A stretch of DNA of 64,000 nt from Streptosporangiales bacterium (GTDB taxonomy: Bacteria > Actinomycetota > Actinomycetes > Streptosporangiales > WHST01): positions 1 to 64,000 of the forward strand of contig WHTA01000006.1 of the NCBI GenBank assembly GCA_009379825.1. Direction: 5' to 3'. A program made the position numbers and the translations under genes. Numbering within the stretch: the first letter of the stretch is position 1; each line of letters opens with the position of its first letter. Below, piece by piece: positions 11,775-64,000 of the stretch. The notes under the pieces are model-generated. The model saw only the letters and a program-made list of their open reading frames with translations. It was not told where the DNA came from and searched no databases.

Positions 11775-13260
11775 TCACCGAGCCGATCCGCGGTCGGGGA
11801 ACCAGTAGTCCGGTTTCGTGTCCAGCCGCCGCCAGATGTGCTTGTGCTCCAGGTACTCCGCGAGCCCGGCCGGTCCAAGCTCCCGGCCGACACCCGACTG
11901 CTTGAAACCGCCCCACTCCGCCTGCGGTACGTACGGGTGGTAGTCGTTGATCCAGATGGTGCCGTGCCGCAGCCGCGCGGCGACGCGGTCGGCCTTGTCG
12001 GCGTCCTCCGTCCACACCGCACCCGCGAGCCCGTACCTCGTGTCGTTGGCGATCCGTACGGCCTCGTCCTCGGTGCGGAAGGTCTCCACGGTCAGCACCG
12101 GGCCGAACGACTCCTCCTGCGCCACCGTCATGTCGCTACGGCACCCGTCCAGGACGGTCGGCGGGAAGAAGTAGCCCGCCGCGAGTTCTGGATCGTCCGG
12201 ACGCTGCCCGCCGCAGCGCAGGACCGCGCCCTCGGCGAGCCCGTCGGCGACGTACTTCTCCACCTTCGCCAGGTGGGCGGCGGAGATGAGCGCTCCGGTG
12301 TCCGCGTCGCCGTCGAACGGGCCGCCGAGGCGAATCTGCCCCGCCCGCCGAACGACCTCGTCGACTAACCTGTCGTGCAGGCTCTCTTCCACGATCAGCC
12401 GCGCGCCGGCGGAGCACACCTGCCCGGAGTCGAGGAACACTGCCGTGAGCGCGAAGTCGACGGCGGCTTCGAAGTCCGCGTCGGCGAACACGACGTTGGG
12501 GTTCTTGCCGCCGAGCTCGAGCGCGACCTTCTTCACCGTCGCCGCCGCGCTCGCCATGATCCGCCTGCCGGTCTCCAGCCCGCCGGTGAACGAGACCAGG
12601 TCGACGTCCTGATGGTCGACCAACGGCGCACCGACCGCGGCGCCGGTACCGAGCAGCAGGTTGCCGACGCCGGCGGGCAGGCCAGCTTCGTCGAGCATCT
12701 CGGTCAGCAGGATCGCAGTCGACGGGGTGAGCTCGCTCGGCTTCAGGCAGAACGTGTCGCCCGCGGCGATGGCCGGCGCCACCTTCCACGACGTCTGCAG
12801 CAGCGGGAAGTTCCACGGCGTGATCAGCGCGCACACGCCGACCGGCTCGCTGACGACCCTGCTGTGCACGCCCCTCGACGCCGATCGCCACGTCCCTTCC
12901 CCCGGTGCCAGGAGCCAGCTCGGCGTAGTAACGGAACACGCTCACCACGTCCGCTACGTCGATCCGGCCCTCCACCAGCCGCTTGCCGGTGTCCAGCGAC
13001 TCCGCGGTCGCGACCCGCTCCGTCTCCGCCTCCAGCGCGTCCGCCACCCGGTGCAGCAGCTGACCGCGCTCCGCCGGCGTCCACGACCGCCAGGGCCCGC
13101 CGTCGAACGCACGGCGTGCGGCGGCGACCGCGGCCTGCGCATCGGCAGGCCCGGCCTCGTCCACGGTGGCGACCAGCCGGCCGTCCGCGGGACACCTGAT
13201 CTCCCGGCTCGCGCCGGCCGCCGCCGACGTCCAGACACCGCCGATGAACAGTGTGGGCAC
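11775..13260 (-). pseudogene. betaine aldehyde dehydrogenase-like, frameshifted
   Basis: NAD-dependent aldehyde dehydrogenase, most like betaine aldehyde dehydrogenase (choline to glycine betaine, second step). The catalytic Glu (ALELGGKNPNVVF) and catalytic Cys (LDSGQVCSAGARL) are present, as is the NAD-site motif ITPWNFPLLQ. The frame is broken: the N-terminal part runs from GTG 13260 (GGAGGT just upstream) to about 12875, and the rest continues in another phase from about 12870. Removing one C from the run of four at 12871-12874 restores a 494-residue protein, the normal family length. It may be a pseudogene, a sequencing error or a phase-variable run. It lies 17 nt after the iclR gene and just before a choline dehydrogenase remnant. 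Confidence 0.85.
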
Positions 13261-53729: not shown

Positions 53730-54050
53730 TCAGGCTGCGACGCTTGCCAACGGCGACTGCGCGGAGTCCTCGCCGCCGCTGCCGGCACCGGTGATCGCGC
53801 CGGACACCTCCGCCACGCTCATCTCCTCGAGCGCGACCAGGTCGCTCACGTCCCTGAGCACCTCGGACATCCGTACGCCAAGCGCCTCGCAGATTGCAGC
53901 GAGCAGTTCGGACGACGCTTCCTTGTGACCGCGTTCGACCTCGGACAGGTAACCGAGCGAGACTCGAGCCAAGCCGGACACCTCGCGGAGGGTGCGCCCT
54001 TGACGCATCCGGTGCTGCCGCAGCACGTCACCGAGTGTCTGCCTGAGCAT
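53730..54050 (-). CDS. clgR: ClgR-type XRE regulator
   Basis: 106-residue helix-turn-helix protein ([40 protein letters not shown]), ending in a short helical tail with Ala-Ala at the C-terminus, as in ClgR. ClgR activates clp protease and chaperone genes and is itself degraded by ClpP through its C-terminal alanines. Position directly after cinA and pgsA is the standard actinobacterial order. The start [10 protein letters not shown] at 54050 is chosen from several possible. Confidence 0.88.
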
Positions 54051-54140
54051 GGGCGTCCCTCCCCTCGGACCGTGGTGGCCATGCATCTCTCCACCGTATA
54101 CGCACACCGCGCCGCTTGGCGTCCCAGTACCTGCTCTCTT

Positions 54141-54620
54141 CTAAGAGCGAACAGCGGCGTCCAGCAGCAGTCGGCAGGCCGCTTCGGTCGCCGCCTGCCT
54201 GACCTGCGGCCGCGTCGGCTGTCCCTCGGGCGACAGTGCCGTCACCGTCGTCCCTGCCGGTCCAGCGACCGCGACGTAGACCGTGCCGGGCGGTTGGCCG
54301 TCCTGCGGGTCGGGGCCGGCGACGCCGGTCAGCGCAAGCCCGTAGGTCGCCTGGAGCAGCTCGCGTACGCCGGTGGCCAGCTGGCGCGCGACCTCCGGGT
54401 GCACGGCGCCGTGGGTGGCGAGCAGCTCGCGGTCGACGCCGAGCACCGACGCCTTCACGTCGGTCGCGTACGCGATCACGCCGCCACGGAACACCGCGGA
54501 CGCGCCCGGTACGTCGGTCACGGTCGCGCCCACCAGACCACCGGTCAACGACTCCGCGACGGCGAGCGTCGCGCCCGCGGCCCGTAGCTCGGCCAGGGCG
54601 TCCTCGAACAGCTCGGCCAT
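54141..54620 (-). CDS. pncC: nicotinamide-nucleotide amidohydrolase (CinA C-terminal domain only)
   Basis: 159-residue protein equal to the C-terminal amidase domain of CinA (AVAESLTGGLVGATVTDVPG, GVIAYATDVKASVLGV, LALTGVAGPDP). It deamidates NMN in pyridine-nucleotide salvage. The N-terminal molybdopterin-like domain is absent, as is usual for actinomycetes. It lies eight nt after pgsA. Confidence 0.92.
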   Translation of the reverse strand: MAELFEDALAELRAAGATLAVAESLTGGLVGATVTDVPGASAVFRGGVIAYATDVKASVLGVDRELLATHGAVHPEVARQLATGVRELLQATYGLALTGVAGPDPQDGQPPGTVYVAVAGPAGTTVTALSPEGQPTRPQVRQAATEAACRLLLDAAVRS

Positions 54621-54628
54621 CGGCTGCG

Positions 54629-55285
54629 TCAGCTGGCCGCCTGCCGGCGCAGCCGCAGCGCACGCCACAGGTAGTCGACGCCGGTGGCCACGGTGACCAG
54701 GACGGCCCCGCCCATCACCACCGCCTCCGTGATGTCGAGCGCGAGCCAGCCGAGCGGCAGGATGTACAAGGCGATGGCGGTGATCTGCAGGACGGTCTTC
54801 AGCTTGCCGCCCTTGCTCGCCGCGATCACGCCGTGCTTGATCACCCAGAACCGCAGCAACGTGACACCGATCTCGCGGACCATGATCACCACGGTCACCC
54901 ACCACCACAGCTCGTCGATGATGGACAGCCCGACCAGGGCCATCCCCATCAGCGCCTTGTCGGCGATCGGGTCGGCGATCTTGCCGAAGTCGGTGATCAG
55001 GTCTTTTCGCCGGGCGAGCTCACCGTCGACGTGGTCGGTGAGCGAGGCGAGCAGGAACACCGCAAGCGCGCCGAGCCGCCACCCGTCACCGGGCTGGAGC
55101 AGCATCCAGCCGAAGACCGGCACCATCAGGATGCGCAGCACGGTCACCGCGTTGGCCGGGTTGACTATGGGCACCGAGCGTGCGGGGACGGCCGGTTCCG
55201 TGCCGCCACCGACGGGATCGACTCCTGCTGGTTCCATCTGTTCAGCCTCTCCGGGTGGCTCGGGCCCGCCCATTGCTCCGGTCAC
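54629..55285 (-). CDS. pgsA: CDP-alcohol phosphatidyltransferase, PgsA
   Basis: 218-residue membrane enzyme making phosphatidylglycerol phosphate from CDP-diacylglycerol. The CDP-alcohol motif D-x2-D-G-x2-A-R-x8-G-x3-D-x3-D is complete ([11 protein letters not shown] then [10 protein letters not shown]). It has five to six helices. GTG 55285 overlaps the rimO stop; internal ATGs at 55273 and 55237 are also possible starts, and the first about 35 residues are not family-conserved. Confidence 0.93.
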
Positions 55286-56733
55286 CGAGATCGAACGGAC
55301 GACCCGTCCCGGTCCGCGTTCGCGTCCGCGGTGAGATCGACGCCGTCGCTGGCCACGACCGACGCCGTGACCAGGTCACCGACGCGCACCGTGGCCGGCA
55401 CGCGGACACTCGTCGCGCCGTCCACCTCAGGCCCCTGGTGGGCCGCACAGCCCTCGGCGATCCCGACGGCCACCGACTCGACGAGCACGTCGACCTGTTC
55501 GCCGATGCGCTCCTCGGCCCGCTGCGCGACGAGCTCGTCGACCAGCTGGGTGACCCGCTCCACCCGCTCGTCCACAACCTGCTGGGGCAGCTTGCCGTCG
55601 TGACCCGCGGCCTCCGTGCCGTCCTCGTCGGAGTAACCGAAGACGCCCACGGCGTCGAGCCTGGCCGCGCCGAGGAACTCCTCGAGCGCGGCGACGTCCG
55701 CCTCGGTCTCACCCGGGAAGCCCACGATCACGTTGGTCCTGACCCCGGCCAGCGGCGCCCGCGCCCGGATCTGACCGAGCAGGTCGAGGAACTGCTCGCC
55801 GTCGCCGAACCGCCGCATCCGGCGGAGCACGGGCCCGCTCGCATGCTGGAACGAGAGGTCGAAGTACGGCGCGACGCCGCTGGTAGCCGTCATGACATCC
55901 ACCAGCGTGGGTCGCATCTCCGCCGGCTGCAAGTAGCTGACCCTGATCCGGTCGATGCCCGACACCGCCGACAGCTGGCCGAGCAGCTGCTCCAGCAGCC
56001 GTACGTCGCCGAGGTCCTTGCCGTACGACGTGGAGTTCTCGCTGACCAACACCAGCTCACGGACGCCCGCACCAGCCAGCCAGGCCGCCTCCTGCACCAT
56101 CTCGTCGACCGGCCGGGAGACAAATGCACCACGGAACGACGGGATCGCACAGAACGCACACCGACGGTCACACCCGGAGGCGATCTTCACCGGCGCGCTC
56201 GGCCCGCTGCCCAGCCGCCTGCGCAGCGTCTGCGTGCCGCCGAGGCTGCCCGGCCGCCGTACGGTCACCTCGGTGGCGGCGCCGTGTCCCGGCATGACGG
56301 CGCCGGCCTGCTGCCGGTCGACCGGCGAGATCGGCAGCAGCTTCCTGCGGTCGCGGGGCGCGTGCGGCGCGGGCGCGCGGCCGTCGACCACCTCCTGGAG
56401 CGTGCCGGCGATGTCCGGGTAGTGGTCGAAGCCGAGCACGGCCGCCTCCGGCATCGCCTCGGCGAGCTGGTCGCCGTACCGCTCGGCGAGGCACCCGACC
56501 GCGACGACCTTCGGCGCGTCCGCGCCGTCGTCGGCGGCGGCGAGCAGGGTGTCCACGGACTCCTGCTTGGCCGCCTCGACGAACCCGCAGGTGTTCACGA
56601 GCACGGCGTCCGCACCCTCGGCCTCGTCGACCAGGGTCCAGCCACCGTGCTCGAGCCGGGCGGCCAGTTCGTCCGAGTCGACCTCGTTACGGGCGCAACC
56701 CAGCGTGATGAGCGCTACACGTCGTTCAGACAC
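55282..56733 (-). CDS. rimO: ribosomal protein S12 methylthiotransferase
   Basis: 483-residue radical-SAM methylthiotransferase. The N-terminal UPF0004 domain ([34 protein letters not shown]) binds one 4Fe-4S cluster. The radical-SAM motif is CDRRCAFC, and the TRAM-like C-terminal domain is about residues 410-475. It modifies Asp of S12. It is first of a coupled rimO-pgsA-cinA-clgR group. Confidence 0.95.
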
Positions 56734-56757
56734 AGCTCTAGAGACTACGTGACCGGG

Positions 56758-58185
56758 TCAGGGCCGGCCGTTGCCACGGGACGGTAGCTCGCTCGGCTCC
56801 GCCGAGGGCGTCTGGTTGTCGCCGAGGCAGATCTTCAGGATCGGGATCCGCACGCAGACCGGCCGCACCGTCTCCGTCGGCTCCGGCTCCGGCGTCGTCG
56901 GCTCCTCGGTGGGCTCGGTCGTCGGCGGCTTCGGTGAGTCTGACGTCTCCGGCGGCGGCCTGCTGGACGTCGGCTCGGTGGCCGGCTCCGTGGTCGGCTC
57001 CGTGGCCGGCTCCGGCTCGTCCGGCGGCTCCTCCGAGGTGGCCGGCGGCCGGCTCGACGTCGGCTCGCTGGTCGGCGGCGAGGTCGGCGGCTCCGACTTG
57101 GTCTCGGCCACCTTCGACGTGCTGCTGCTCGGCTCGGACGAGCTGTCCGCCGTGGCCCCGCCGGTGCCACCGACGCCTGTCGGCTGGCTGGACTGGGCGG
57201 TACGGCTGCCGCCGTCGTCGGCGAGCCTGTTGCCCACCGTGGCCCACGCTGTCACACCGAGCGCCATCACCAGCACCACCGTCGCGGCCACTGCCGTCGC
57301 CGGGTTCTTGCTGGCGTTCTTCCACCAGGCCCAGGCCGCCGGCAGCAGCCCGAACAGCCCGATCGACTTGCCGGCGGCGGCGAGGTAGGGAACGGCGGCC
57401 GACCCGAGCACGACCGGTGCCAGCAGGAACCGGAACCCGGAGTTGACCTCGACCAGGTCCAGGTAGATGATCCGGCACTTGTCGCACTCGTCCAGGTGCT
57501 CCCTGACCCGGCCGCTCTCCCTGCTGCCGAGCTTGTCCCTGACGTACGCGCCCAGCCGCTCACTGCACCAGCTGCACTCCTCGCCTTCCACCGTCGCGAG
57601 GTGTTGCTGCAGGTAGAGCTGGCGGAGCTGCTCGCGCGCACGGTAGGCGATCGCTGACACGGCGTTCGGGTTCAGGCCGAGCAGCGGCGCCACTTCGGCG
57701 GGGGACTCGCCCTCCACCTCGATGTGCCAGAGCACCGCCTGCCAGCGTTCCGGGAGCCCGGCGAACGCCTGCGCCGCGTACGCCTGGTCGAGCTTGCTCA
57801 CCGCCGGGTCGTCCGGCGACTCCGGGCGCTCGTAGTCGGCGACCTCCTCGACCGGCTCGACCTTGCTGCCCGCGCGGCCGGAGTCGATGTGCACCCGCCG
57901 CATGGTCGTCAGCACGTACGCACGCACCGCGGACTCCGGCCCGCCACCGGACTTCAGCGTGGTCAGCAGCCGCGCGAACGACTCCGCCACCAGGTCGTCG
58001 GCGGCCGCCTGGTCCGCGGCGAGCACCCGGGCGAGCCGGCGGGCGGCGTCCACGTGGCGCCGGTAGACGACGTCGAAAGCGTCGGCGTCGCCGTCCCTGA
58101 CGGCGTCGAGCAGCGCAGCATCGCTGGGCGCATCGGCCGTGTCGGTCCCGCCAGCGACTTGATCATCGGGGCTCTCGCTGCTCAC
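56758..58185 (-). CDS. ECF sigma factor fused to zinc anti-sigma and membrane domains
   Basis: 475-residue fusion. Residues about 20-190 are an ECF sigma factor (region 2 FDVVYRRHVDAARRLARVLA, AADDLVAESFARL; region 4 LPERWQAVLWHIEVEGESP, NPNAVSAIAYRAREQL). A zf-HC2-type zinc module then follows (CSWCSERLGAYVRDKLG, HLDECDKC). Two hydrophobic segments come next (LLAPVVLGSAAVPYLAAAG; ATVVLVMALGVTAWATV), then about 150 residues of Ser/Thr/Pro/Glu-rich stalk ending in a short Cys-containing tail. Sigma and anti-sigma in one chain suggest a membrane-tethered factor released by proteolysis (inference; similar fusions are known in ECF groups of Streptomyces). It lies alone upstream of rimO. Confidence 0.88.
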   Translation of the reverse strand: MSSESPDDQVAGGTDTADAPSDAALLDAVRDGDADAFDVVYRRHVDAARRLARVLAADQAAADDLVAESFARLLTTLKSGGGPESAVRAYVLTTMRRVHIDSGRAGSKVEPVEEVADYERPESPDDPAVSKLDQAYAAQAFAGLPERWQAVLWHIEVEGESPAEVAPLLGLNPNAVSAIAYRAREQLRQLYLQQHLATVEGEECSWCSERLGAYVRDKLGSRESGRVREHLDECDKCRIIYLDLVEVNSGFRFLLAPVVLGSAAVPYLAAAGKSIGLFGLLPAAWAWWKNASKNPATAVAATVVLVMALGVTAWATVGNRLADDGGSRTAQSSQPTGVGGTGGATADSSSEPSSSTSKVAETKSEPPTSPPTSEPTSSRPPATSEEPPDEPEPATEPTTEPATEPTSSRPPPETSDSPKPPTTEPTEEPTTPEPEPTETVRPVCVRIPILKICLGDNQTPSAEPSELPSRGNGRP

Positions 58186-58299
58186 AGCAGGAAAGGATAC
58201 GGGCTCGAAAAAGAAGTCGGGAAACCCGCGTCATGACCTCCGGGCTGCTCCGTCACCTAGATATCGCACGGCTCCGGCCCTCGCGGCCGGCCGTACGGG

Positions 58300-58440
58300 T
58301 CGGTCGATGGGGGTCGGCCGAGTCGGAGTCGCCAGGCCCAAAGGGGGGAAAGGGCTTGGCGGGCGCCAGGGGGTGCTGGCGCGCCCGGGTTCCGCTGGGG
58401 GGCGGGGCTCGGGTCTCCGACCAAACACAACCAAGCCCGG
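58300..58440. other. GC-rich structured intergenic segment
   Basis: This stretch shows strong strand bias with runs of G (AGGGGGTGCTGG, GCTGGGGGGCGGGGC), an imperfect hairpin around 58345-58375 and GGTC-GGA-GACC on the minus strand. It shares the style of the dispersed repeat (GAGCCCCGCCCCC, GCGGAACCC on the minus strand) but is not a clear third copy. No gene seen. Confidence 0.4.
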
Positions 58441-58453
58441 GGGAGGAAGACGA

Positions 58454-59275
58454 GTGGATCGGCGGTGCGTGGCGACGACGCCCCAACGGGGGTGGCGTCG
58501 TAGCCTCGGACGCCCAACTACCGGGGAACAAGCGGACATCCGAGCAGATAGGGGCCTGCTCAGGACCGCCTGGCAACACGCCTCGGCAGTGCGGGGGTGG
58601 CGCGTGCCCACCGACTGGTGGGCACCGCCGGTCGACTCGCTCCTGGACGCGATCGTCGCGGAGGACGGGTTGGCGCAGCCGTGCGCCGAGCTCGCCCGGG
58701 CGCGAGCGAAGGCCGGCGTGGGTCTGCCGGAAGCCTTCGACGATCTCTGGGCGCTGTTCTCCGTGCTGCGCCGGTTGCCGCCGCCGAACGTGGTCAGACG
58801 ATTTGCCGAGTCATACGCAGAGTCAGCGCCGGCGGCCGAATTGGTCACCGAGAGTGTCGATCCACTGACCGGCATCGCCCGCCTGGAGTACCTGCGCGTG
58901 CGGCTCGGTGAGGTCTACCGGGAGGCGGCGGCGCTGAGCCGGGAGGTACCTGCCACCCACGGTCTGCTGACCGTCCGGTTCGAGGCACTGCCTACCGGGT
59001 GGCTGGGCACCACCTGCCGGCTGGCGATCGCACGCGTGCTGCACACCACGTTCTGCAGCGGCGAGACCATCGCCACCGTCGGCCCGAGCGCACTGGCCGT
59101 GCTCACCCTGCACGCGACCACCGTCGTACCCGCGGATCTCTCCGCCACGCTCAGCGACACGTCGGGCACCGACGTGCTCGTGCGCCGCATCAGGCTCCCG
59201 ACGACGTTGCCGGGCGCGCTGATGCAACTGGACGTACTTGCCGAGTCCGACTGTCCCGAGACACCACACAAGTGA
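58454..59275 (+). CDS. GGDEF-like domain protein (degenerate)
   Basis: 273-residue protein. A helical N-terminal half (about 110-150 residues) is followed by a region that opens DPLTGIARLEYLRVRLGEVY. This is the entry signature of GGDEF diguanylate cyclase domains (DxLTGL). The catalytic GGDEF and RxxD motifs are not found, so it is probably a non-cyclase sensor or scaffold. GTG 58454 has GGAGGA eight bases upstream. It is co-transcribed with the small protein at 59285. Confidence 0.7.
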   Translation: MDRRCVATTPQRGWRRSLGRPTTGEQADIRADRGLLRTAWQHASAVRGWRVPTDWWAPPVDSLLDAIVAEDGLAQPCAELARARAKAGVGLPEAFDDLWALFSVLRRLPPPNVVRRFAESYAESAPAAELVTESVDPLTGIARLEYLRVRLGEVYREAAALSREVPATHGLLTVRFEALPTGWLGTTCRLAIARVLHTTFCSGETIATVGPSALAVLTLHATTVVPADLSATLSDTSGTDVLVRRIRLPTTLPGALMQLDVLAESDCPETPHK

Positions 59276-59284
59276 GGTGAAGTC

Positions 59285-59473
59285 GTGAGCACAGGTCAAC
59301 ACCGCCGTTCTGGCGAACCGCTGCGTGAGCGGCTGACGAAGTTGATGACGACGACGACCGGTACCCACCGGCGTCGCAAGCAGGACGCCGCCGAACCAGC
59401 AGACACCGAGTCCGCGTCGCAGGCAGAGGAGAACGCCCATGTCGACTACCGCCACCACAAGCAAGCGTCCTAG
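59285..59473 (+). CDS. small basic protein of unknown function
   Basis: 62 residues, charged (RRSGEPLRERLTKL, THRRRKQDAAEP), without membrane span or recognised domain. GTG start with GAGGTGA about six bases upstream, nine bases after the GGDEF-like gene, so probably translated. It could be a fortuitous frame; the ribosome site and operon position are the evidence. Confidence 0.5.
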   Translation: MSTGQHRRSGEPLRERLTKLMTTTTGTHRRRKQDAAEPADTESASQAEENAHVDYRHHKQAS

Positions 59474-59532
59474 GCGCCTTGACCTCACCTGGACCTGACC
59501 ACCGACCAGAGGCCTCCCGCGGCCGCTGACCG

Positions 59533-59564
59533 GCCGGCGTCCGCAGCCACAGGCGGACGCCGGC
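59533..59564. terminator. hairpin after the GGDEF-like unit
   Basis: A 12-bp perfect stem (GCCGGCGTCCGC with GCGGACGCCGGC) and 8-base loop lies 60 bases after the small gene. It faces the larger inverted repeat that follows ftsK. Confidence 0.65.
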
Positions 59565-59675
59565 AGGTCCCTTCAGCCTGACGCGCGGGTCGTGCATCCC
59601 TCCGCGGCTGATCGTCCCGGCAGGCGATCAACCGACCTTCATGCCGGCCCGCGCGTCAGCCTGACCAGGACCTGC
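59563..59675. repeat. 113-bp imperfect inverted repeat downstream of ftsK
   Basis: Arms 59563-59589 and 59648-59675 are near-perfect inverted copies (GCAGGTCC outer, TGACGCGCGGG inner, one mismatch and a small bulge). The 58-base loop contains its own TGATCG/CGATCA stem. It ends 23 bases from the ftsK stop and could terminate ftsK, form a stable RNA end, or be a mobile inverted-repeat element. No gene in this interval. Confidence 0.6.
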
Positions 59676-59698
59676 ATGTCGGTCCGGCGCGAGGGTGC

Positions 59699-62239
59699 TC
59701 AGTCCTCCGCCGGCTCGGTGTCCTCGTCGGGGGCCTCGGCCGGTGCCGGTGGGTCCTCGCCGCGCAGCAACGCCATGGTGGCCGGCAGGTCGTCCGGCTT
59801 GAGCAGCACCTCGCGGGCCTTCGAACCCTCGCTCGGCGCGACGACGCCGCGGCTCTCCAGGATGTCCATCAGCCGGCCCGCCTTCGCGAACCCCACCCGC
59901 AGCTTGCGCTGCAGCATGGACGTCGAGCCGAACTGCGTGTTCACCACGAGCTCGGCCGCCTGGCAGACCAGGTCCAGGTCGTCGCCGATGTCCTCGTCGA
60001 TCTCGCGCTTCTTCGTCTGGACGGCCGTGACGTCCTCGCGGTAGTGCGGGTCGGCCTGGTCCTTCGTGTGCTTGACGACGGCGCGGATCTCCGACTCCGG
60101 CACCCAGGCACCCTGGATGCGCATCGTCTTGTTCGCGCCCATCGGCAGGAACAGCCCGTCGCCCTGGCCGATCAGCTTCTCCGCACCCGGCTGGTCGAGC
60201 ACCACCCGGCTGTCCGCAAGCGACGAGGTGGCGAACGCCAGCCGCGACGGCACGTTCGCCTTGATCAGGCCGGTCACCACGTCCACGCTTGGCCGCTGGG
60301 TGGCGAGCACCAGGTGGATGCCGGCGGCGCGGGCCAGCTGCGTGATCCGGACGATCGCGTCCTCGACGTCGCGCGGCGCGACCATCATCAGGTCGGCGAG
60401 CTCGTCCACGACCACCATCAGGTACGGGTACGGGCGGTACTCCTTGTCGCTGCCAGGCTCCGGCTTGAGCTTTCCGGAACGCACCGCCTTGTTGTAGTCG
60501 TCGACGTGCCTGAACCCGCTCGCCGCCAGGTCGTCGTAGCGGAGGTCCATCTCCTTCACGACCCACTGCAGCGCCTCGGCGGCCTTCTTCGGGTTGGTGA
60601 TGATCGGCGTGATCAGGTGCGGCACCCCGTTGTACGAGGTGAGCTCGACCCGCTTCGGGTCGACCAGCACCATCCGCACCTCGTCCGGCGTGGCCCGCAT
60701 GAGGATGGACGTGATCAGCGCGTTGATGCAGCCCGACTTGCCCGCACCGGTGGCACCGGCGATGAGCACGTGCGGCATCTTCGCCAGGTTGGCCACCACG
60801 TAGCCACCCTCGACGTCCTTGCCGAGTCCGACGAGCAGCGGATGGTGGTCGCTGGTCGACGTGTTCGACCTGAGCACGTCGCCGAGGCTGACGTTCTCCT
60901 TGTCGGTGTTGGGGATCTCGATGCCGATCGCGGACTTGCCAGGGATCGGCGACAGGATCCGGACGTCGGCGCTCTTCACGGCCAGCGAGATGTTCCTCGA
61001 CAGCGCGGTGACGCGCTCCACCTTCACCGCCGGGCCGAGCTCGACCTCGTACCTGGTGACCGTCGGACCGCGGGTGAAGCCGGTGACCTGGGCGTCCACG
61101 TTGAACTGTTCGAACACCTCGGTCAGCGCCTCGACCACGACGTTGTTCGCCTTGGTACGTGCCTTCGGCTTGCTGCCGGCCGCCAGCAGGTTGCTCGGCG
61201 GGAGCGCGTAGTCGCCCTTGAGCACCAGCTGTTCCGCGGTGGACGGCACGGGCGCAGGTTCCGGCGGCTGCGCGCTCTTCACCTCGGCGGCGGGCACCGG
61301 CTTCGGCTTCGGCTCGACGACCGGCGACTCGTACGGCTCGTCGCCGGCGCGGCCGCCGGCGACGTCGTCGCTGACCCGCTTGCGCGAGGACTTGCGCCGC
61401 AGCGACTCCACCGGGGCGTCCAGCGACCGGTCCGCGCCGTCGGCGCCGTCATCGTCGCCTGCCGCGCCGTCCTTGCCGAGCCTGACCTGGTCCCTGATGT
61501 AGCGGAACTTCTCCGGGATCTCCCGCAGCGACGTCCCGGTGATCACCAGCAGCCCGAACACGCCGAGCAGGCCGAGCAACGGCACCGCGAGGTACGTCGA
61601 CAGCACGGAGACCAGTGGCAACGCCGCCAGGAAGCCGATCAGGCCGCCCGCGCCGCGCAGCGCGGCCGCGCCGTCGCTCGGGCTGGGCAGGCCGGTGGCG
61701 ATGTGCACGATGCCGAGCACGGCGACGAGCAGAGCGCTCCACCCGATGACCACCGGCCCGGTGGCGGCGTTGTTCTCCGGGTTGCGCATCAGCCGCCATG
61801 CGGCGAGCAGCAGCAGGATCGGCACGACCACCGCCATCCGCCCGGCGGCACCTGCCACCGCGGCGACGATGCCCTCGCCGACCGGCCCCGGCAGCTGCCA
61901 CCACACGGCCACGGCGACGACCACCGCGAGCGCGAGGAAGAGCAGGCCGAGGCCGTCCCTGCGCTGGTCGGGCTCCAGGTCGCGCGCGCTCTTGCCGGCC
62001 ATCCGCACCAGCCGGCCGAGACCGCCGCTGACCAGCAGCCAGACCCCGGCCAGCCCCTTCCAGACCAGGCCGATGACCATGAGGATCGGGTCCGGCGACT
62101 TGGTCGCGGCGTTCGACCTGCCGTTCTTCTTGGCCGCCGAACTGCTGCTGGACCGCCGGGTGGTCGACGAACGGGTGCGTCCTTTCCCGCCCGACTGTTT
62201 CGCCGACGAGCGGGATCTGCTGGACGTACGGGTCGCCAT
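59699..62239 (-). CDS. ftsK: DNA translocase FtsK/SpoIIIE
   Basis: 846-residue septal DNA pump. It has a Ser/Arg-rich N-terminus, four membrane helices (about residues 60-235), a charged linker, and a motor domain with Walker A GATGAGKSG and Walker B LMVVVDELADLMM. The C-terminal gamma winged helix (QFGSTSMLQRKLRVGFAKAG) reads orienting sequences on DNA. MATRTSSRSR at 62239 is the natural start. Typical position near clgR-pgsA in actinomycetes. 62240-62308 holds its promoter region with no clear box. Confidence 0.96.
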   Translation of the reverse strand: MATRTSSRSRSSAKQSGGKGRTRSSTTRRSSSSSAAKKNGRSNAATKSPDPILMVIGLVWKGLAGVWLLVSGGLGRLVRMAGKSARDLEPDQRRDGLGLLFLALAVVVAVAVWWQLPGPVGEGIVAAVAGAAGRMAVVVPILLLLAAWRLMRNPENNAATGPVVIGWSALLVAVLGIVHIATGLPSPSDGAAALRGAGGLIGFLAALPLVSVLSTYLAVPLLGLLGVFGLLVITGTSLREIPEKFRYIRDQVRLGKDGAAGDDDGADGADRSLDAPVESLRRKSSRKRVSDDVAGGRAGDEPYESPVVEPKPKPVPAAEVKSAQPPEPAPVPSTAEQLVLKGDYALPPSNLLAAGSKPKARTKANNVVVEALTEVFEQFNVDAQVTGFTRGPTVTRYEVELGPAVKVERVTALSRNISLAVKSADVRILSPIPGKSAIGIEIPNTDKENVSLGDVLRSNTSTSDHHPLLVGLGKDVEGGYVVANLAKMPHVLIAGATGAGKSGCINALITSILMRATPDEVRMVLVDPKRVELTSYNGVPHLITPIITNPKKAAEALQWVVKEMDLRYDDLAASGFRHVDDYNKAVRSGKLKPEPGSDKEYRPYPYLMVVVDELADLMMVAPRDVEDAIVRITQLARAAGIHLVLATQRPSVDVVTGLIKANVPSRLAFATSSLADSRVVLDQPGAEKLIGQGDGLFLPMGANKTMRIQGAWVPESEIRAVVKHTKDQADPHYREDVTAVQTKKREIDEDIGDDLDLVCQAAELVVNTQFGSTSMLQRKLRVGFAKAGRLMDILESRGVVAPSEGSKAREVLLKPDDLPATMALLRGEDPPAPAEAPDEDTEPAED

Positions 62240-62308
62240 GTTCCTCACCGTAACGACTTTTGTCACACAAGCACCACCCGCCACACGGAGGGTGCTCGGG
62301 TTACCCGG

Positions 62309-63844
62309 TCAGGTCACGGTCTCGAAGGCGGCCATCATCATCATGTCCTCGTGCTCCAGGTTGTGGCAGTGGAACACGTACGGTCCGGCGTAGTCGGTGA
62401 ACCGCACCAGGGCGTCGACGACCTCGCCTGGACGGACGTCCACGGTGTCCTTCCAGCCGTGGACGTACGGGCCGCCGCGCAGGACGCGGAAGCTGTCCAG
62501 GTGCAGGTGCACTGGGTGGTGCAGGTCGGTGACGAACCGCCACCGCTCAACCTGGCCGAGCTTCGGCTTTGCGTCCATCCGCTCCGGGTCGAACATCTTC
62601 CCGTTGATCGTCCAGGTCTGGTGGTGGCTGAGATCGTCGCGGCCGAACCGGAACTCCCGCTCCACCCGCACCTGGTCCGGCCGGGGCAGCTCGAGCTTGC
62701 TGAGGGTGGCGGGGATGCGGCTGTCGTCCGCCTCCTTGCGGGTCACCCGGAACCGCATCACCTGCTCCGTCCCCTTGGCGTCGGCGAGCGCGTTGGTCAT
62801 GGTCACCGTGCTGCCGACGGGGAACGCGGAGAAGTCGATCACCACGTCGAACCGCTCCGCCGGCGCGATCTGGATCTCCTCCTGCCGCACCGGCTCGGCG
62901 AGCAGCCCGCCGTCCGACCCGATCTGGACGAACGGCGCGCCCTTGCCCGGCTTCGGGTCCAGACCGAGCCGGTAACGGCGCGCGTTGGACGCGTTCAGCA
63001 GCCGGAGCCGGTACCGGGTCGCGCTGACCTCGAGCTCAGGCCACGGCGCCCCGTTGACCAACACGACGTCGCCGAGCACGCCGGCCATGTACGCGTGCTC
63101 GACCCCAGGCTTGCTCTCCAGTGCCGGGTCGCGGGACGGGTACGTGAACGTCCCGTCCTCGTCGAAGGCGCGGTCGCAGATCATCAACGGGATGTCCTTG
63201 TCGCCCTTCGGCAACGGCAGCCGGTCCTCCTCGTCGTCGTGCACGAGGTGGAAGCCGGCCAGGCCGCGGTACACCTGCGGACCGGTGAAGTCCATCCGGT
63301 GGTCGTGGTACCAGAGCGTCGCCGCACGCTGCTCCATCGGGTACGCGTACTGGCGCTCCCTGCGCGTGACGTGGCCGACGTTCGCGTGCCGATGCTCACC
63401 GGAGTAGCCGCGCGGCAGCACCAGGTCGACGGGGTAACCGTCGCTCTCCGGCGGCGTGTGGCCGCCGTGCAGGTGCACCACCATCGGCACCGGCAGCTCG
63501 TTGACGTGCCGCACCACGGTCTTGCGGCCGCGCCGCGAGACGATCGTCGGGCCGGGGAAGGTGCCGTCGTAACCGAAGATCTCCGTACGCGTACCGGGCA
63601 GGATCTCAACGTCGGCGACCCGCGACGTCACGTCGTGGAAGTCAGCGTCCGCCGTGCGTCTGGACGGCTTCGCGACCCGCGGTATCGGCAACGGCACGGT
63701 GAACGGCCGCGGCAGCTTCGCGGTGCTGCGCAACAGCTGCCCCGTCTGCACCTCGCCGAGCAGCGACGCGCAACCGGGCAGCGCCAGCGCTGCGCCCACA
63801 CCACCGGCAACTCCGAGGAAGCCGCGGCGCGACAGCCGCCTCAC
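62309..63844 (-). CDS. multicopper oxidase, Tat-exported (CotA/bilirubin oxidase type)
   Basis: 511-residue exported oxidase. The twin-arginine signal RRGFLG and a lipobox-like ALPGC indicate Tat export, perhaps with lipid anchoring. All four copper regions are visible: HLHGGH, WYHDHRMD, HPVHLHLD and HCHNLEHEDMMM (with Met as axial ligand of the blue site). Probable activities are copper(I), manganese or phenolic oxidation. GTG 63844 overlaps the TGA of the upstream membrane-protein gene, so that start is used. Confidence 0.93.
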   Translation of the reverse strand: MRRLSRRGFLGVAGGVGAALALPGCASLLGEVQTGQLLRSTAKLPRPFTVPLPIPRVAKPSRRTADADFHDVTSRVADVEILPGTRTEIFGYDGTFPGPTIVSRRGRKTVVRHVNELPVPMVVHLHGGHTPPESDGYPVDLVLPRGYSGEHRHANVGHVTRRERQYAYPMEQRAATLWYHDHRMDFTGPQVYRGLAGFHLVHDDEEDRLPLPKGDKDIPLMICDRAFDEDGTFTYPSRDPALESKPGVEHAYMAGVLGDVVLVNGAPWPELEVSATRYRLRLLNASNARRYRLGLDPKPGKGAPFVQIGSDGGLLAEPVRQEEIQIAPAERFDVVIDFSAFPVGSTVTMTNALADAKGTEQVMRFRVTRKEADDSRIPATLSKLELPRPDQVRVEREFRFGRDDLSHHQTWTINGKMFDPERMDAKPKLGQVERWRFVTDLHHPVHLHLDSFRVLRGGPYVHGWKDTVDVRPGEVVDALVRFTDYAGPYVFHCHNLEHEDMMMMAAFETVT

Positions 63845-64000
63845 GGCTGCCCCCGCAGTTTCTTGGCCAGCCGGTAGCGCCACGCCACCAGGTACCAGAC
63901 CAACGCGACCGACGTACCGACGATCGCGACGCCAAGCGGGATGTGGATGCCGAACTGCCGCGTGTACCCCATCCCGATCTGGAGCCCTTCACCGAAGAAG
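63841..64000 (-). CDS. C-terminal part of a membrane protein (cut by window edge)
   Basis: Only the last 52 codons are in the window. They contain one hydrophobic segment (IPLGVAIVGTSVALVWYLVA) and a basic end (RYRLAKKLRGQP). It overlaps the oxidase gene by four bases (GTGA), so the products probably work together, for example in copper or electron supply. Family not recognised from this fragment. Confidence 0.7.
   Translation of the reverse strand, partial: FFGEGLQIGMGYTRQFGIHIPLGVAIVGTSVALVWYLVAWRYRLAKKLRGQP

Follow-up and report, generated by a model that had tools for sequence, protein, structure and literature searches.

A predicted membrane-tethered ECF sigma factor with a fused zinc anti-sigma module and a divergent degenerate GGDEF partner in Actinomycetes

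The window analysed here, a stretch of 64,000 nucleotides of contig WHTA01000006.1 from a Streptosporangiales bacterium, contains on its reverse strand a single unbroken reading frame of 475 amino acids (58185..56758, GTG start, stop codon included). This gene encodes a fusion of ECF sigma factor, zinc anti-sigma (ZAS) module, membrane anchor and stalk, whose features all lie on the reverse strand. Pfam placed Sigma-70 region 2 at residues 41-104 (57874..58065; PF04542 Sigma70_r2, E 8e-8), Sigma-70 region 4 at residues 139-187 (57625..57771; PF08281 Sigma70_r4_2, E 1e-6) and a zf-HC2/ZAS module at residues 204-238 (57472..57576; PF13490, E 6e-8), and all three matches exceeded the gathering cut-offs. 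The protein also scored 63.6 bits against TIGR02937 (cut-off 42.9), and regions 2 and 4 are its only sigma regions, as in an ECF sigma factor. The ZAS module contains the Cys...His-x3-Cys-x2-Cys set of such anti-sigma factors (C204, H230, C234 and C237), which is predicted to bind zinc. The original prediction, that sigma factor, anti-sigma factor, anchor and stalk lie in one polypeptide with ECF regions 2 and 4 and a zf-HC2 zinc module, was thus borne out by the reading frame and by the order and scores of the Pfam domains.

Residues 299-317 (57235..57291) form a convincing transmembrane segment with a mean hydropathy of 2.12, and this was the top peak in most relatives. Residues 253-271 (57373..57429) form a weaker hydrophobic segment (hydropathy 1.88) that had a counterpart peak in most relatives and is doubtful as a membrane segment. 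Where membrane segments had been predicted in the plural, one is therefore sure and the second only doubtful. The tail after residue 318 is 157 residues long (21% Pro, 15% Thr, 15% Ser and 13% Glu) with 26 acidic and 12 basic residues, in agreement with the acidic Ser/Thr/Pro stalk of about 150 residues that had been expected, and its GC content by codon position (0.62/0.70/0.95) follows the pattern of coding sequence. By composition, the Pro/Thr/Ser/Glu-rich stalk spans residues 319-442 (56860..57231) and would lie on the extracellular side. The stalk is followed by a Cys-pair tip, C444-x8-C453 (CVRIPILKIC, 56827..56856), and the C terminus reads VCVRIPILKICLGDN before a short run-out. The C-x8-C spacing was shared by all three proteins of the genus (window, L103 and L104), and the tip stays constant across the genus while the stalk drifts; in Actinomycetospora (L006) the Cys pair was looser, with a longer loop. 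The tip might fold into a disulfide hairpin or serve as a ligand-binding site. An AlphaFold model of the fusion had a pLDDT of 47.9, too poor for sigma/ZAS contacts.

Using residues 1-262 as query (E ≤ 1e-15), we found a homologue of the fusion in 225 of the 297 genomes of the order, and fused sigma/anti-sigma factors of this type are thus widespread in Actinomycetes. The order search listed 150 of its match rows. The nearest strong named relatives found were those of Actinomycetospora chibensis (49%) and Nonomuraea gerenzanensis (44%). Among 57 distinct aligned homologues (window included), H230, C234 and C237 were kept in every protein and C204 in 56, with His in the remaining one, and C207 was poorly kept, being Cys in only 2 of the 57. 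Region 4 and the ZAS module shared one frame in 57/57 homologues, in a set that is biased to fused forms because the query spanned both sigma factor and ZAS. Chance or misassembly was ruled out as the origin of the fusion, because the fusion, its frame and the upstream element described below recur in two genomes of the same genus and in many others.

A membrane peak and a Pro-rich tail were common to most of the relatives read, and many fully read relatives had tails of about 480-680 residues past the membrane. Pfam found no family in the large ectodomains of three scanned relatives (L105, L106 and L113), and an NCBIfam scan of the L105 ectodomain found none. In several loci without the divergent partner gene described below (L049-L052, L057 and L066) the tails were Pro-rich and free of Cys, and a homologue on a Streptomyces plasmid (L010) ended in a ricin-type lectin. 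A sensor would be expected to combine a variable input region with a constant cytosolic core, and these proteins appear sensor-like in this respect. In L105, L106, L108 and others the extracytoplasmic region was large, looked conserved and contained four Cys, and it is possibly an undescribed sensor domain. The plasmid homologues L010, L011 and L012 adjoined genes for an LAETG-sortase surface protein or genes related to SpaA pilin, hinting at the control of surface proteins.

Upstream of the fusion gene we found a bipartite element, ACGG-N15-ATGACG (58229..58253, reverse strand), 44-68 bases 5' of the GTG. A 15-bp spacing fits an ECF-type -35/-10 pair. On the strand of the sigma gene, the exact element was present in 37 of 59 distinct homologous upstream regions, and spacers of 10-14 and 16-21 gave no match in the same 59 regions. 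The opposite strand gave single matches at spacers 12 and 21, and Markov-generated null sets gave a mean of 0.025 matches with a maximum of 1 per set. Of the 22 regions without the exact element, 14 were just one mismatch off in the printed listing. Since the element was kept with the partner gene present (27/43) or without a detected partner (10/16), it belongs with the sigma gene. The fixed spacing before the sigma gene and its ECF-like length make autoregulation of the fusion gene likely, and the element probably serves as the promoter from which the sigma factor drives its own gene, although it could instead be an operator. A single long consensus, which reached at least 17/24 matches in only 21/42 regions (null 0/840), was replaced by the bipartite form. 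The idea of a palindromic operator, GTCATGAC, was dropped because the palindrome occurred in part of the loci only, whereas ACGG-N15-ATGACG is fixed-spaced. The sequence TATCCT lies 8 nt before the fusion GTG with no Shine-Dalgarno sequence, and the same holds in two close relatives, in which an ATG aligns with the GTG of the window 8-9 nt after TATCCT/TATGTT. This arrangement makes a second, leaderless transcription start possible.

Genome-wide searches of three genomes of the genus returned 19, 21 and 18 matches to the element versus 7, 4 and 5 to the reversed pattern. Many of these matches fell within long reading frames, and the only clearly shared site across the three genomes was the sigma gene's own. 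Among the extra genomic matches we found no regulon conserved across genera, and the best extra candidates differed by genus: ACGG-N15-ATGACG(CG) lay before a prfB-like gene in the window genome (L155, G000:C84, about 13140-13164) and before serS-like genes in three genomes of genus g4 (L180, L183 and L186), the gene identities being assigned by eye from translations. The sigma factor may have additional targets at these sites. Both L155 and L101, from two genomes of the genus, also carry a small, conserved Cys-rich frame (GKCSRCGxxWPCLxCLTSTPPFV) divergent from the element, and the two copies share 65% identity over 43 aa.

The divergent partner gene (58454..59275, forward strand) starts with a GTG after GGGGGAGGAAG and encodes 273 amino acids, with an N-terminal helical part and a degenerate GGDEF-fold domain. 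The partner matched no Pfam or NCBIfam family, and the 26 homologues scanned gave no consistent family and no Pfam GGDEF match. Among the homologues, W40, W49 and W55 were invariant together with a DPLTGL..YLRTRL..LY block, a combination that suggested GGDEF. The best PDB match of the partner profile was the diguanylate cyclase 6zxm (E 0.007), and 6 of the 9 PDB chains listed up to E 5 were GGDEF proteins. An AlphaFold model built from two sequences was of moderate quality (pLDDT 71.5), the strand/helix order of its C-terminal half was consistent with GGDEF, and the top 26 Foldseek matches were all GGDEF proteins (3ezu, 6e-5; 7e6g, 7e-4). Profile and predicted structure together indicate that the partner carries a GGDEF fold. 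A DPLTGL-like motif was present in 41/43 partner proteins and the GG(D/E)EF signature in 0/43, and the GGEEF of the matched structures aligned with G-R-G-R-V in the partner family. Since the signature is missing, we describe the partner as a GGDEF-fold protein, for which diguanylate cyclase activity is highly improbable. In L017, L029 and L033 (genus g25) the partner frame continued, as judged by eye, into a PyrE-like orotate phosphoribosyltransferase (about 450-460 aa), and in Nonomuraea (L008) PyrE-like sequence came after the partner.

The partner was present in 83 of the 297 genomes of the order and was divergent from a fusion in all 83. For 77 of these the arrangement was taken from coordinates among the matches listed, with 94-390 bases between the two matches. 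For the other six the DNA was read (L019, L020, L038 and the fetched stretches L196-L198), and each had a divergent fusion, the fusion match in L196-L198 being split across two frames or pieces. A profile search of the class found a partner match in 64 of 394 genomes. The best 30 of these class loci, 15 of them outside the order and 8 families in all, had a divergent fusion with the ZAS pattern in 30/30, and the weakest class matches (about 1e-5 to 1e-7), many of which lie in long frames, may represent genuine GGDEF proteins. An exception to the divergent arrangement was Paenarthrobacter OM7 (L012), in which both genes were on the same strand. Because the fusion was found in 225/297 genomes and the partner in 83/297, the fusion as such does not require the partner. 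Partner gene, promoter-like element and Cys-pair tip are additions to the original prediction. A literature search that did not extend to the two ECF classification papers in which gene neighborhoods would most probably be noted (Huang 2015 and the reclassification of 2021) did not find the partner-fusion pairing, the degenerate-GGDEF gene or the element described, and the pairing provisionally appears to be new.

Within positions 53730-63883 of the window, the pair sits between ftsK (59699-62284, reverse strand) and rimO (55282-56733, reverse strand), and pgsA and a ClgR-like gene come after rimO. A multicopper oxidase gene with a possible TAT signal (62309-63883) lies upstream of the pair.

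We propose, with a probability of roughly 0.6, that the fusion is a self-inhibited, membrane-tethered sigma factor that is released by proteolysis and autoregulated. By homology, the ZAS module would fold back in cis on regions 2 and 4 and block access of the sigma factor to RNA polymerase. The one strong transmembrane helix would anchor the protein, and the Pro/Thr/Ser/Glu stalk would bear the Cys-pair tip outside the cell. By analogy with IutY and the proposal made for SCO4117, a cell-wall signal at the tip or stalk would result in cleavage within or close to the membrane, upon which the ZAS part would be lost and the sigma domain freed. The free sigma factor would then transcribe its own gene from ACGG-N15-ATGACG in a positive feedback, and the divergent degenerate-GGDEF protein would probably act from the cytosol as a regulator dedicated to this switch. 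In favor of this proposal are the domain order in one reading frame, the conserved zinc ligands, the membrane peak and Pro-rich tail with a varying ectodomain in the relatives, the fixed-spacing element (37/59), the partner linkage (83/83 and 30/30) and the published accounts of IutY and SCO4117, as far as the available text of these sources goes. Against it are the many fusions without a partner and the lack of a cross-genus regulon among the element matches; in addition, the element may be an operator, and cleavage is a prediction, as is the original requirement that such a sigma factor be either proteolytically freed or active at the membrane.

Proteolysis would be dispensable if loss of zinc, oxidation of thiols or binding at the tip loosened the ZAS module and the intact, membrane-bound protein recruited RNA polymerase. 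In favor of this, the Cys/His zinc ligands hardly vary, the zf-HC2-type anti-sigma factor RsrA can sense redox according to the available part of its description (PMC4960319), and with all parts in one chain no partner would need to dissociate. However, a tethered sigma factor would be awkward at dispersed promoters, C207 as the sole extra cytosolic Cys is not conserved, and the best-studied relatives, in the accounts available of them, favor truncated active forms; we regard such a switch as unlikely. Far less probable is that an internal start yields a separate ZAS-membrane protein and that the fusion is merely formal. GTG codons do occur at residues 199, 259 and 299, but by eye no obvious Shine-Dalgarno sequence lies just ahead of them, and the 57/57 homologues with region 4 and ZAS in one frame also speak against two working proteins, although the retrieval favored fused forms.

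The partner, rather than the stalk, might be the main signal input by binding a nucleotide or c-di-GMP and holding or releasing the sigma factor or the ZAS module from the cytosol. Its divergent linkage in 83/83 order genomes and in the 30/30 class loci examined, and its GGDEF fold by profile and structure search, are consistent with such a role. An actinobacterial c-di-GMP switch that offers a precedent is reportedly RsiG-WhiG. The available text of one source describes a c-di-GMP-dependent sigma/anti-sigma switch in Actinobacteria (PMC8325347). On the other hand, the GGDEF signature is missing in 43/43 partner proteins and the GGEEF position reads G-R-G-R-V, so nucleotide binding by the partner is not assured, and many fusions have no detected partner. 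We consider the partner a doubtful candidate for the main input and prefer the tethered sigma factor that is released by proteolysis.

Tentatively, the two genes may form an undescribed two-gene module of Actinomycetes, in which the tethered sigma factor senses the outside through its stalk and the pseudo-GGDEF protein gates this sigma factor from the inside by nucleotide or direct binding, so that firing of the promoter would depend on a wall signal together with a cytosolic state. If true, the link of a pseudo-GGDEF protein to an ECF sigma factor would extend the possible functions of GGDEF domains that are enzymatically dead. Since the element is a ready promoter reporter and the partner a candidate intracellular regulator, the activation of such sigma factors is directly testable.

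Among known systems, the GGDEF diguanylate cyclases 6zxm, 7e6g (SiaD) and 7a7e resemble the partner in its C-terminal fold and in the D-P-L-T-G-L start of the domain, but they have the GG(D/E)EF signature that is missing from the partner (43/43). For the fusion, the closest comparison is with ECF48, ECF52 and ECF53, which the available text of a 2022 review describes as fused ZAS-transmembrane sigma factors for which proteolytic release is expected (PMC8999054). As this kind is already published, the single-protein architecture is not new. Compared by description, ECF48 and ECF53 share with the window protein a C-terminal zinc-finger ZAS-like fusion and one to two transmembrane helices (PMC8999054). 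IutY of Pseudomonas putida (ECF243) is likewise a sigma factor fused to a membrane anti-sigma factor; it is activated by regulated proteolysis, and its truncated form is constitutively active (PMC8999054). However, IutY serves iron-siderophore surface signaling in a Gram-negative host, whereas the window protein is from an actinomycete, and according to the same part of the review, proteolytic activation has been characterized experimentally solely in the Gram-negative case (PMC8999054).

The ECF52 protein SCO4117 of Streptomyces coelicolor, as presented in the available text of its source (PMC5826349), unites an ECF domain, a zinc finger, a transmembrane region and a proline-rich extension in a single chain, as does the window protein. 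Its autoregulation was suggested and its release by proteolysis proposed, as we propose here, and truncation to the sigma domain alone caused a less severe defect than deletion and led to higher expression of the SCO4117 gene itself (PMC5826349). The expectation that the mechanism of such fusions is little known therefore holds in part: the kind has been described, and both the knockout and truncation of SCO4117 and the proteolytic release of IutY are published. Differences from SCO4117 are also evident. The motif proposed for SCO4117 is CSGYN-17bp-SRHA as compared with ACGG-N15-ATGACG, and SCO4117 lies downstream of atrA with no GGDEF-like neighbor described in that text (PMC5826349), whereas the window fusion has the divergent GGDEF-fold gene. 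The C terminus of SCO4117 is a carbohydrate-binding module (PMC5826349); Pfam found no such domain past residue 238 of the window protein, whose tail ends in the C-x8-C tip. Of the ECF52 features, the zinc finger, the transmembrane region and the C-terminal proline-rich extension are present, but we do not claim ECF52 membership because the carbohydrate-binding domain is missing. By the features described, the window protein is of the actinobacterial ECF48/52/53 type, with an unusual tip.
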